A stretch of 64,000 nt of DNA from Butyrivibrio fibrisolvens 16/4 (lineage in GTDB: Bacteria > Bacillota > Clostridia > Lachnospirales > Lachnospiraceae), in the NCBI GenBank assembly GCA_000209815.1, contig FP929036.1, positions 551,885 through 615,884 of the forward strand. The letters are read 5' to 3'. A model generated the notes under the pieces. It saw nothing but the letters and a program-made list of their open reading frames with translations. It was not told the origin of the DNA and ran no database searches. Position 1 is the stretch's first letter; every line of letters starts with the position of its first letter. Shown here in pieces: positions 2,575 through 5,943 of this stretch. Both the position numbers and the translations under genes were made by a program.

Positions 2575-3069
2575 TTAGCGATTTACATCATACCTTGTAG
2601 CTCTCCCCTGACCTTCAACTTGAATAAGCCCCTGATTCTTCAGTGTATTCAGTGTATCTATCGCCTTATTTCTCTCGATTCCCAATTCAGACACAACCTG
2701 CCCACTAGAAACTGGTCCATTTTCTTTTATATATTTGAGAATAATGGCTTCATTATCCGTTAAATTAACACTATCTATGGTTGACAAAACTACAGTAATA
2801 GAGCCTTCATTTACTATAAAATTGGGTTGAGCTACATAATCCGCATATAAAGATTTTATTCTTATTATTCCTGTACCAAATTTTTCAATAAGATTTAATC
2901 TTAAAAACACATCTGCCAATATAGGATTTCTTAGAAGAGAATACCTGCCATTAATGTAATCATCCATTGTTATGCCACTTGGCAAACCTCCTGGTGAAAC
3001 TATCTCTATTCGATTGTCAAACATTGAGATTTGCACGTTCGCGTTTACATTCCACTTCCTATGCACCAA
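2575..3069 (-). pseudogene. Truncated RecG-like/AlbA-type ATP-binding protein (fragment B)
   Basis: 164 open codons (TTG first) hold an HATPase_c_4-type region (VSPGGLPSG, RNPILADVF, IEKFGTGIIRI) followed by a winged helix (GPVSSGQVVSELG, LKNQGLIQ). Full-length relatives are 400-500 residues and begin with an AlbA_2 DNA-binding domain, which is missing here. The open frame begins abruptly at the REP-like element at 3071-3104, so that element appears to mark the truncation point. It sits directly upstream of fragment A of the same superfamily. It is probably non-functional, although a short wHTH protein could still be made. Confidence 0.6.
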
Positions 3070-3070
3070 A

Positions 3071-3104
3071 TATTAGTACCTGGCACCCATTACAAAAATG
3101 TTAC
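3071..3104. repeat. REP-like element, copy 2
   Basis: On the minus strand it reads TTTTTGTAATGGGTGCCAGG then TAC, a variant of the core at 1300-1320. It lies exactly at the broken 5' edge of the truncated ATP-binding gene and just after the terminator of the HEPN gene. Confidence 0.4.
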
Positions 3105-3106
3105 AA

Positions 3107-3138
3107 CAAAAAGCTCCACACCATCACTGATGTAGAGC
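3107..3138 (-). terminator. Intrinsic terminator of the MNT-HEPN pair
   Basis: GCTCCACACCA (3113-3123) pairs with TGATGTAGAGC (3128-3138) over 11 positions with two mismatches. On the minus strand the stem is followed by TTTTTGTTG. It lies ten bases after the restored HEPN stop. Confidence 0.65.
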
Positions 3139-3147
3139 ATACTTATC

Positions 3148-3538
3148 CTATGGTTTAATCCATCTTTCTTCTATATATGGTCTTATTGTATTGATTATTT
3201 TTCCGCTTTGGTAATCTGTTCTTCTGCTTGTTCTTATGATACCACATAGAAATCCTGATAATCAGCCTTTTCTCTAAGTCTATATGCTGTGTCAATAAGC
3301 TTAGAGATTTCCTTGTCAAATATACCTTCTTTAACATAAGTTTTGTTAAAAAAACAATTATTCCAGAATGCTTGCTAGAGTCAAAATCCTCCAAAGCAGT
3401 TACGGCTCTTAATGTGTGAAAAATAGCATAGTAAGAACGGTTAACCGATGCCTTATATTTCTGTGATTTCAACAGCTCTTTTGAAGTATCTAACTCATCA
3501 ACTGCTGTATCAAATCTATACTTTGAGAGATCAATCAT
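3148..3538 (-). pseudogene. HEPN-domain toxin-like protein, damaged reading frame
   Basis: The N-terminal half (LDTSKELLKSQKY, RSYYAIFHTLRAV, KHSGII) is typical of the HEPN proteins that pair with MNT nucleotidyltransferases. The ATG at 3538 overlaps the MNT stop codon in an ATGA, which decides the start. The open frame runs out of register at the seven-A run at 3348-3354. Restoring a base gives the usual FDKEISKLIDTAYRLREKADY segment. A TAA at 3234-3236 then interrupts it, and a second shift lies at the five-T run at 3198-3202. Restored length is about 130 residues ending at 3148. The in-frame stop, unlike the homopolymer shifts, suggests real inactivation. As assembled, the domain is cut before its C-terminal helices. 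Confidence 0.65.
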
Positions 3539-3861
3539 GCTGCCTTCCATAACACAATCCCCTCTTTTCTAACGTTCTGATAAAATGGAACAACATTTTC
3601 CCATTTTTTGATTGTCTCATCTTCGATGTCAATTACTGAAAAGACTTTATCATACTTGAGATTCATATCTACAACTACATCTGATAAAGCATCTTCTGTT
3701 TGAAAATCCAAAGCGCCATTTACTATTACTGCTATATCTATATCTGAGTCTTCACTAGCTGTTCCTCTTGCAGTAGAACCATATAAAATAATACTAACAG
3801 TTTTTATTCCTACTGCATTCAATATTCCCATTACTAGCTCGTTGTACATCTGTGTATTCAT
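3535..3861 (-). CDS. MNT-type nucleotidyltransferase antitoxin
   Basis: 108 residues carrying the minimal nucleotidyltransferase signature GSTARGTASEDSDIDIAV, with the G-S motif and paired Asp residues that bind metal and nucleotide, plus a third acidic strand region (VDMNLKYDK). In HEPN/MNT modules the MNT enzyme neutralises the HEPN partner, in studied cases by AMPylation. I place the start at the ATG at 3861 behind AAAGGAG rather than at the upstream ATG at 3897. The upstream ATG lies inside the predicted -10/spacer region and could not be on the transcript. The stop overlaps the HEPN start (ATGA), the usual translational coupling. The frame is intact although its partner is damaged. Confidence 0.8.
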   Translation of the reverse strand: MNTQMYNELVMGILNAVGIKTVSIILYGSTARGTASEDSDIDIAVIVNGALDFQTEDALSDVVVDMNLKYDKVFSVIDIEDETIKKWENVVPFYQNVRKEGIVLWKAA

Positions 3862-3888
3862 AGGAAACCAGCTCCTTTCTATATTCAT

Positions 3889-3917
3889 AATATACATTTT
3901 TGAAGACTACTGGTCAA
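3889..3917 (-). promoter_or_regulatory. Sigma-A-type promoter of the MNT-HEPN operon
   Basis: On the minus strand TTGACC (3917-3912) and TATATT (3894-3889) are separated by exactly 17 bases. The expected transcript begins just before the AAAGGAG that precedes the ATG at 3861. Confidence 0.6.
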
Positions 3918-3969
3918 ATGGTATGATAGGGGTCTCCAAAACCATTATTAGTTATTCATCTTTATTGCA

Positions 3970-4237
3970 TCAATCATACTCAAACATTCCCTGAACAGCA
4001 TCTGCCACATTCATTATGTCTGGTAATGCATTCTATCTCTTTTTGTAAAAGCTCTTTCACTAATATCAATTAGTTTTATTTGCTCACAAATGACCGTGCC
4101 AATAGTTCACTTCCTTTAGGCTCACCCCAATCCAAATTATAGACTGAAATCTCACCATTATATTCACTCATCCTTTCTTTAAAGGTTTTGTGTTGAAAAG
4201 CCTTCTTTAGAATGATTCTATATACATCTATTTTCAC
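3970..4237 (-). pseudogene. Small third gene of the HipA-like operon, frame broken
   Basis: A GTG at 4237 overlaps the upstream TGA in a GTGA and follows AGGGGGGAG, a strong translational-coupling signal. The first open stretch (KIDVYRIILKKAFQHKTF... WGEPKGSEL) stops after about 54 codons. Two single-base restorations, near 4118-4122 and near 4026, extend it through TVICEQIKLIDISERAF and MNVADAVQGMFEYD to a TGA at 3970-3972, about 89 residues. Neither break lies in a long homopolymer, so this may be true decay. No family was recognised. The coupling to the HTH/HipA-like genes suggests a third component. Confidence 0.4.
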
Positions 4238-5042
4238 TCCCCCCTAGTTATCTCCCCTTTCAAAAACACATTCTCCCTCCAGCCCTCTTTCAGTGGATGT
4301 AACACATCTGTCTTGATAAGATGAGCCAAATTCTGCCTAGAGCATCCCAGTATCGAGCAAGCTTCCGTTGTATTGACAACACAATGGCTAGCAAAATCCA
4401 TAAACGCCTGTGCATAAATAGGAATAATGACTCCGTACTTTTTGATGATTCTTTTTTCTATAGATATTGAATCATTTATAGAAAAACCATATCCTCCAGC
4501 ATCCACCTTCAATGTAGACAATAGACGCTCATTACCTAAAACTGTATAGAGCTTAGGCACTTCATCAATACATTTCTTTAAATCTAATTCCATTACAGTA
4601 TCGTCATCCATTAAGCATATCACACGATTGTCCATAATAGGAAAACACTCAAAAACATTATCTCTTTGTCTATCAGCAACCCACGATGGAAGTTCTTCTT
4701 TTTTATTTCTTCTAAGTAACATGAATCCTGGGATGAACGTCCTTTGCTCAGTGCTAAAAGCTTAGCCTCATTATATTTCATGAGTTTTGCATTTCTTAAA
4801 ATAATTCCAATGTTTTGTCTTCCGCTTGGAATCACTCTTTCCTCTACCCACAGCCTAGCTATATTCTTAGGAATAGTATATATTCCTTTTTTCACCAAGC
4901 CAGCAAATAACAATGGTGCATTCCATTCGTTCAGTGTTTCAATTAATTCTATTACATAGGAATCATCTCTTTCAAAATACAGGACGTACCCTATACCATT
5001 CACTTTATCTATTTCATCATCACGAATTGTAAAGACTCTCAT
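4234..5042 (-). CDS. Putative HTH-containing partner of the HipA-like kinase, split by a frameshift
   Basis: Restoring one base in the six-T run at 4699-4704 joins an N-terminal part (IGYVLYFERDD, LFAGLVKKGIYTIP, LWVEERVIPSGRQNIG) to a C-terminal part (LPSWVADRQRDNVFECFP ... TTEACSILGCSRQNLAHLIK), about 269 residues in all. The last 45 residues look like a MerR/excisionase-type helix-turn-helix. The body has no recognised fold. It could correspond to a HipA N-subdomain-like or antitoxin region, but that is inference. Its start overlaps the restored 3' end of the kinase-like gene by 23 bases, and its stop overlaps the next small gene, so the three genes form one operon. Confidence 0.55.
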
Positions 5043-5840
5043 AGTAATGCCACCTTTTAAAAATCATCATCCATATTTTTTCCAAATGTTCCCTTGAAAT
5101 AATATCTTCCAATCCATCCAATAGTACATCTCTGCTATTTTCATTTAGTCCACTGCTAAATATTGTATCCTTGTTTTTATCAGTGAAAGATTCTCCAAAG
5201 TGGACCTAGTGCCTATAAAATTCTGACAAGGTCTATCTTCGTCTATATCAAACTCCTCTATCTCCTTTTGATTAAAACAAGAGCATAAAAGGGACAAACC
5301 GTGATCAAACAAAGGAGCTATTCTCAATGTTTTATTTCTTGCGTTCCTAAGTACCTCTATATTTGCTCCATGCCTATCTCGATTTAAAATCAAATAATCG
5401 ACAGCAAGCATTGTGTCTATATAATTCACCCAACCATTCTCCTTGCAAAACTCGTAACGAGTTTTTCCTGAAACATTATTTATCTGATAATAGTTCTCCA
5501 GTGTGGCCTTAGTCTCTCCAGGTTGCTTAAAATCTTCCGATGCACACACCCACGTCTCATACTCTTTGCCATCAATTTCCACATCAGCATGTATGAGCTC
5601 ATAATGTAGATGCTCAATACCTAAAATTGTTAATAATCTATCTACCACAATTTCATTTATACACTCGTGACCAATTATCCCTTTTTCGCTGTCAAATCGA
5701 GATAGCTTATAATATATCTTCCTTCCATCTATCGTTTCCTGAGATTTAAGAAATGTTCCTGCTGTACCACTAGAATTTCTTGTATGGGACCAGTTCAAAT
5801 ATCTCATATCCTGCTTTTCTGAAATAATACGAGTTTCCAT
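5020..5840 (-). CDS. HipA-like Ser/Thr kinase (toxin-type), frame broken near C-terminus
   Basis: The ATG at 5840 follows TAGGAGG. Kinase features are visible in order: a Gly/Ser loop (SSGTAGTFLK), a lysine strand (IYYKLS), a Glu helix (HECINEIV), the HipA-type catalytic loop (ILNRDRHGANIE) and the metal-binding motif (APLFDHGLSL). Classical HipA is about 440 residues with an extra N-terminal subdomain. This protein is only about 273 residues even when restored, more like the short HipT-type kinases. The open frame ends at 5145. One base restored in the five-T run at 5174-5178 continues it (LNENSRDVLLDGLEDII, HLEKIWMMIF) to 5020. Likely role: toxin kinase of a type II-like module whose regulator is the downstream HTH protein. 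Confidence 0.7.
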
Positions 5841-5860
5841 GGATATTTCCTCCTACCGTA

Positions 5861-5890
5861 ATTATATATTCTAATTTGACGCACGTCAAA
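5861..5890 (-). promoter_or_regulatory. Promoter with overlapping palindromic operator of the HipA-like operon
   Basis: On the minus strand TTGACG (5889-5884), a 17-base spacer and TATAAT (5866-5861) form a near-consensus promoter. A perfect inverted repeat, TTTGACG-CA-CGTCAAA (5875-5890), overlaps the -35 and spacer, where a repressor would block polymerase. This fits autoregulation of a toxin-antitoxin operon. Confidence 0.7.
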
Positions 5891-5943
5891 TAGTCCCTCT
5901 ATTTCCATCTCATCCACCCCTTCACACCTATTTCATAAACCTA

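Follow-up and report, generated by a model that had tools for sequence, protein, structure and literature searches.

We analysed a window of 64,000 nucleotides from Butyrivibrio fibrisolvens 16/4 (contig FP929036.1, positions 551,885 to 615,884), whose genome is a single contig of 3.16 Mb and close to that of Pseudobutyrivibrio xylanivorans. On the minus strand the window carries a short kinase gene of the HipA/HipT type and, behind it, the gene of a partner that ends in a helix-turn-helix (HTH) domain, both headed by a palindrome that overlaps a promoter. A first-pass annotation had read this arrangement as an intact three-gene module of unusual order. Comparison with relatives revealed that the module is made of two genes, kinase first and an overlapping composite antitoxin second, and that the copy in the window is broken (Table 1).

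Genes and domains at the locus

The window kinase contains the Gly-rich loop, the DRH..N catalytic motif and the FDHG motif, as judged by motif reading and by the columns of its relatives. It matches the profile of these relatives (E 8.9e-120) and the PADLOC model PDC-M03A (E 5.9e-10). Fold comparison with the intact relative from locus L036 revealed a resemblance to CtkA, HipT and HipA; CtkA (3AKJ/3AKK) is a proinflammatory kinase according to its PDB titles. Kinases of the family are about 270 amino acids (aa) long, and most HipA sequences align with them only from HipA residue ~121 onward. In the structure model, residues 19-25, which form the Gly-rich loop, are the one stretch with a pLDDT below 50. 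With its HipA-like fold, Gly-rich loop, catalytic Asp in DRH..N and Mg-binding Asp, the kinase belongs to the HipA/HipT-type superfamily, and motifs and fold agree with the earlier description of a short HipA-like kinase that has complete catalytic motifs and no N-subdomain-1. The length of about 273 residues given for it is not that of one frame, since the frame ends after 231 codons and the last ~50 residues lie out of frame.

The body of the partner had been described as of no known kind. We can now assign three parts to it. Its first domain (residues 1-112) has the HipS fold in the fold comparison, residues 123-203 are a DUF2442 domain and residues about 210-265 an HTH, the latter two supported by sequence and fold. 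The DUF2442 part adopts the DUF2442/NE0471 fold, and NE0471 (2AUW) likewise consists of DUF2442 followed by an HTH. In the relatives this antitoxin is about 262-280 aa long, and an IP-x-x-RQN motif with an invariant Arg, its RQN at residues 73-75, was found in 71 of 71 antitoxins. A hand alignment with a HipS of the same genus (IPEGW, L117) would place this Arg at the Trp position of E. coli HipS. Among the members listed, neither Pfam nor NCBIfam names the N-terminal domain, and PDC-M03B matches the antitoxin weakly and, among the matches listed, at about residues 65-113 only. Profile-profile alignment with hhalign of the antitoxins against HipS/HipA N-domains of the same genus and two HipN-type proteins gave nothing; since even HipN against HipS gave no alignment, this result is too weak to count against the fold comparison. 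The three domain assignments put a name to what had been an unknown body in a protein family whose relatives number 183 in one public genome scan.

Neither of the two main proteins has an intact reading frame in the window. The partner had been given as a 269-residue protein with an HTH end; the HTH is indeed there, whereas the chain is split across two frames and the length reads across the break. Its second piece shares 66% identity with a copy in the same-genus genome G153, and plasmid pNP95 of P. xylanivorans holds both genes, with protein identities of 83% for the kinase piece and 75% for the second partner piece. We consider sequencing errors an unlikely, though not impossible, source of the frameshifts, because the breaks cluster in 2.5-5.8 kb, because the other open reading frames (ORFs), those between 5.9 and 64 kb, are orderly and of good length, and because the G153 copy, beside a similar dehydrogenase-like gene, has also decayed. 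That copy (L006) lacks a kinase, and its degraded antitoxin spans profile positions 24-266 with one internal stop and a missing start part. In G314 (L237) an intact pair adjoins such a dehydrogenase-like gene. A genuine relic is therefore the likeliest reading of the window copy, ahead of an assembly fault, and the copy is probably inactive.

Table 1. Features of the window at the kinase-antitoxin locus and beside it (TA, toxin-antitoxin)
Feature	Position	Strand	Basis
Ser/Thr kinase gene of the short HipA/HipT type (putative toxin), open for 231 codons	5145..5840	-	ORF list, motifs, profile
Kinase C-terminal ~50 residues, other frame, frameshifted relic	5026..5175	-	Profile positions 223-272, E 3.9e-9 (L167)
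Composite antitoxin piece 1, HipS-like (HipA N-subdomain-1) domain	4620..5042	-	ORF list; profile positions 1-117
Composite antitoxin piece 2, other frame, DUF2442 and C-terminal MerR/excisionase-type HTH	4234..4722	-	ORF list; profile positions 108-267
Predicted palindromic operator ATTTGACG-TG-CGTCAAAT (8-2-8)	5874..5891	-	Perfect; conserved family-wide
Sigma-70-type promoter TTGACG-17-TATAAT, -35 box being the operator's left arm	5861..5889	-	11/12 consensus matches
MazE-type antitoxin remnant, outside the module	4076..4237	-	Relative in L230 is PF04014 MazE, E 4.6e-11
MNT nucleotidyltransferase	3535-3897	-	Family match; frame open
HEPN gene	3155-3550	-	Family match; tail continues in other frame with stops (frames read by eye)
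RecG-C/HATPase fragment	2575-3069	-	Within cluster of broken TA genes

Pairing of kinase and antitoxin among relatives

Intact relatives were searched for in 299 genomes of the family, the window's own included, using the second piece of the partner as query. Matches were found in 32 genomes, and 30 of the 32 were turned into loci, 29 of them besides the own one. A full-length partner (ORF of 262-320 aa) is present in 24 of these 29 loci and stands behind an intact kinase in all 24, with overlapping ORFs in 23. The other five comprise the relic L006, L032 with a 205-aa ORF, L033 and L034 with short proteins that match the DUF2442 region only, and L030 with no recognised ORF.

A wider scan of public genome contigs, overlapping the 299-genome set, confirmed 183 relatives, mostly in Lachnospiraceae, with some in Oscillospiraceae, Erysipelotrichaceae and unnamed Clostridia; 80 were kept. 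Many Clostridia of the gut have intact copies, and so does the rumen species Butyrivibrio hungatei (L042). The antitoxin is intact in 78 of the 80 loci, and a contig end cuts the kinase side in three, leaving 75. An intact kinase lies directly upstream in 66 of these, counted by adjacency, and the kinase is broken or missing in nine (L061, L070, L089, L090, L097, L104, L108, L111 and L114). Of the remaining two, L074 combines an intact kinase with an antitoxin frameshifted in the HTH, and in L113 both genes are short. Nearly all of the 80 loci have the antitoxin family next to a HipA-type kinase or to what is left of one. The idea that partners always follow a short kinase was borne out for all 24 full-length partners of the family search, but not for the nine of 75.

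A working kinase is lacking beside nine antitoxins, and a working antitoxin beside one kinase. This imbalance suits a toxin-antitoxin pair, in which the toxin is the partner expected to be lost; the loci were, however, collected via the antitoxin. In L070, L108 and L114 the antitoxin is intact but large parts are deleted from within the kinase, as though the toxin had been given up and its antitoxin retained, and L114 also holds a second, divergent kinase.

With the kinase as the starting point, a HipS-like gene was found to adjoin all 29 close relatives from other genomes, namely the 24 of the family search, L225 with a full-length partner, and four with a HipS-like protein of 112-125 aa recognised by its motif. 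This count is one of close relatives and leaves out 22 weaker kinase places (E 1e-20 to 1e-50), only L161 of which was examined.

That a small third gene belongs to the module, as first proposed, has become hardly credible. In the window a small frame does overlap the end of the partner. None of the ORFs of the compared relatives matches its protein. Matches do exist in 15 of the 28 other genomes of the genus that were searched, and the best relative examined, in L230, forms the C-terminal end of a MazE antitoxin. Nor does any third family recur beside the pair. When 731 flanking ORFs of at least 90 aa were clustered, the two genes appeared in 79 and 73 loci and the next family in nine, and no family of smaller ORFs recurred in more than two loci downstream (of 68) or more than three upstream (of 69).

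Operator and promoter

The perfect palindrome over a near-consensus promoter, already noticed in the first-pass annotation, was recovered ahead of the window kinase. The promoter alone is no evidence, because the scan returned nine promoter-like sites overall against 8.9 in shuffles. The palindrome, with up to two mismatches, has one match in the window against 0.10 expected, and TTTGACG-N2-CGTCAAA with up to one mismatch occurs at a single place in the 3.16-Mb genome (control 0).

For an operator survey we took the 86 loci with an intact kinase, 75 of them distinct, and inspected the 200 bases that precede the conserved start of the kinase. The pattern TTG[AT]C-N4-G[AT]CAA was found in 66 of the 75 distinct operons and in none of 3013 control stretches taken from these loci; shuffled upstream regions yielded 0.06 loci on average. 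TTGACG-N2-CGTCAA is present upstream in 36 of the 75. Seven of the nine exceptions carry related or degenerate palindromes, judged by eye (L047, L085, L092-L094, L096 and L112). A -10 box (TATAAT, at most one mismatch) lies 16-18 nt from the TTGAC of the 5' site in 44 of the 66 loci, compared with 6.6% at random positions, and the operator therefore seems to double as the -35 box. Two sites were found in 31 loci, 23 of which have them 41-47 bp apart, a spacing at which the second site falls beyond the -10; the window copy has one.

The site appears tied to the HTH domain, since it is absent in four of four sister loci with close kinases whose partner lacks an HTH and present in L225, which has a full-length partner. 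Among eight same-genus loci it was found in seven, L237 being the exception. The upstream test leaves out L161, L149, L150 and L002, where the region upstream of the kinase is maybe not that of the operon.

A kinase followed by an HTH partner under a conserved operator might also be a signalling pair, in which the HTH protein would be the substrate of the kinase and regulate the operon, with no toxin or antitoxin involved; toxicity of the kinase is, after all, only inferred. We consider this improbable. The first domain of the partner has the fold of HipS, the inhibitor of HipT (PMC10627512, PMC9325769), and four sister kinases have, by motif and length, a HipS-like partner without any HTH. 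Furthermore, no wider regulon was seen, as within the own genome the palindrome, with at most one mismatch, is confined to the promoter of the module, and the control stretches were devoid of the pattern.

Proposed mechanism and comparison with known Hip systems

The pair is likely a two-gene Hip-type TA module, consisting of a HipT/CtkA-class kinase and a composite HipS-like/DUF2442/HTH antitoxin predicted to neutralise the kinase and to autorepress the operon. Gene pairing, domain folds, operator conservation and the broken window frames were computed; toxicity and target, neutralisation, DNA binding and autorepression are what we infer. When free, the ~270-residue kinase would stop growth by phosphorylating a target. 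The N-terminal HipS-like domain would replace the missing HipA N-subdomain-1 and keep the kinase inactive, while DUF2442 might link, dimerise or sense. The C-terminal MerR/excisionase-type HTH is predicted to bind the palindrome over the -35, often along with a second one located ~43 bp further downstream, past the -10, and the kinase-antitoxin complex on the operator would repress its own promoter. In this working scheme the module would resemble a HipBST whose HipS and HipB are joined into a single protein encoded after the kinase. The conserved operator provides a known site for a direct test of autoregulation.

Foremost among the alternatives is a phage-defence (abortive-infection) module, in which, as has been suggested for hipIN, infection would free the kinase from its composite antitoxin. 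It is compatible with the TA module proposed here, and we regard it as a real possibility, though a less than even one. Kinase and HipS-like part match the PADLOC candidate defence pair PDC-M03A/B, but PDC-M03 is itself a candidate. HipAD, a HipA-like kinase with a predicted DNA-binding second protein, protects against phage and requires a kinase residue to do so (PMC13092281). Two viral contigs were found, and on one of them, L200, terminase-like genes come after the antitoxin gene (ORFs read by eye); the module can thus sit in a prophage. On the other hand, a search of 50,697 phage records with the antitoxin of L036 gave no match at E 1e-5, and the flanks of the 80 loci hold no widely recurrent neighbour, a statement on recurrence among unannotated neighbours.

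The location of the window copy among other broken TA genes would also suit a defence role. Directly after the MazE remnant follows a piece that resembles the end of the protein encoded behind the MazE of L230; by eye it is MazF-like, and Pfam gives it no name. Together with the MNT, HEPN and RecG-C/HATPase genes these remnants form a cluster of broken TA genes on the minus strand at 2575-4237, and the Hip relic and its neighbours amount to three TA systems decaying within 2.7 kb.

The kinase-composite antitoxin layout does not match the Hip modules that we found described in the literature searched, supplements and bioRxiv not included. Ten Hip organisations are listed by Gerdes et al., 2021 (PMC8262856); HipS-DUF2442-HTH was not encountered among them, and the main text does not mention DUF2442. 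In the searched literature HipA and DUF2442 were not found as a pair, DUF2442 appearing in one paper in a table of TA pairs with DUF4160; "HipS-like" was found only in PMC8262856, and no paper was found that names PDC-M03 or that treats CtkA together with HipA and an antitoxin. These searches for matching layouts support the suggestion of an unusual gene order and a possibly undescribed variant. A kinase-then-HipS order is, however, already known from hipIN, hipJS and PDC-M03, and the difference lies in the antitoxin architecture.

In hipIN, a short kinase gene (HipI) is likewise followed by a composite antitoxin, HipN, that opens with a HipS-like domain (PMC8262856). HipN ends in HIRAN, and the window family has DUF2442 and an HTH with a conserved operator instead. 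HIRAN at the antitoxin C-terminus was not encountered in this family; the HipN-type proteins of L170 and L169 give HIRAN matches of E 1.1e-11 and 3.1e-11. From L170, which matches PDC-M03B at E 1.4e-74, carries HIRAN and has a kinase upstream, we take PDC-M03B to be HipN. HipA-HIRAN gene pairs have been described (PMC11706625). The hipJS module also has a short kinase (HipJ) before a HipS-like protein, which is described as a HipS domain alone, without a DNA-binding part (PMC8262856), whereas the window family adds two more domains. Loci L224, L226, L227 and L228 show a hipJS-like layout with the same kinase class, a HipS-like partner of 112-125 aa and, by eye, an R-x-[IV]-P-x-x-RQN-like motif; in L224, HicA/HicB-like genes come next (by eye).

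More distant systems share single parts. In hipBA the kinase carries N-subdomain-1 and the hipB gene lies upstream, neither of which applies here. HipAD (DS-6 of DefensePredictor, PMC13092281) likewise pairs a HipA-related kinase with a partner predicted to bind kinase and DNA, but, compared by description and not by sequence, this partner carries DUF3037 and DUF1829; of the 40 Pfam families for 71 members, the 25 listed include neither. The DUF4160-DUF2442 type II system (dhiTA, PMC8198452) shares DUF2442, but its partner is DUF4160, not a kinase, and as described there it is without a HipS domain. A Sarcina plasmid carries a DUF4160-DUF2442 gene pair that matches the DUF2442 part of the antitoxin.

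Functionally, HipBST of E. coli O127 and L. pneumophila is the model for our scheme. It combines a short kinase without N-subdomain-1, a HipS-fold neutraliser and an HTH protein (PMC10627512, PMC9325769); the window family has the same kinds of fold, with the HipS-like part as the predicted neutraliser. In HipBST, the inhibition of HipT by HipS is ascribed to Trp65, wedged in at the Gly-rich loop (PMC10627512), or to a reshaping of this loop that bars ATP binding (PMC9325769). HipBST has three genes in the order B-S-T, with HipS as a separate protein of ~100 aa and a Cro-like HTH in HipB; the window family has two genes, kinase first, a fused HipS-like domain and a MerR/excisionase-like HTH. 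In place of the wedging Trp of E. coli HipS, the window family would have Arg according to the hand alignment. RQN in place of Trp would sharpen the study of HipS-type locks. Canonical hipBST-like operons occur in the own genus (L117, L118 and L120), with an HTH protein of 71 aa, a HipS of 105-106 aa with IPEGW, and a HipT of 314-315 aa.

Further arrangements seem to occur, as judged by motif and by eye. In the own genome (L002:1012-2193, G000:C1 near 1,266,180) a 393-aa protein appears to have a HipS-like domain fused before a kinase of the same class, in HipA order and behind a 135-aa gene. G207, which also holds the main module, has a reverse-order variant (L161) in which a 179-aa protein with HTH and HipS-like domain precedes a short kinase. 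Moreover, a HipS-like gene of 133 or 201 aa precedes a short kinase in L149 (G440) and at L114:8152-9550.

Tentatively, and with more doubt than confidence, we propose an undescribed Hip family in which one chain would unite a kinase lock, with the invariant RQN motif at the Trp-wedge site, a DUF2442 sensor of the trigger and a phage-excisionase-type HTH repressor; swapping the part behind HipS (none, HIRAN or DUF2442-HTH) could then provide different triggers, some of them against phages. Taken side by side, the known and the present systems suggest that the HipS neutraliser is a movable lock, found alone, with HIRAN, behind an HTH, before a kinase, or, as here, with DUF2442-HTH.
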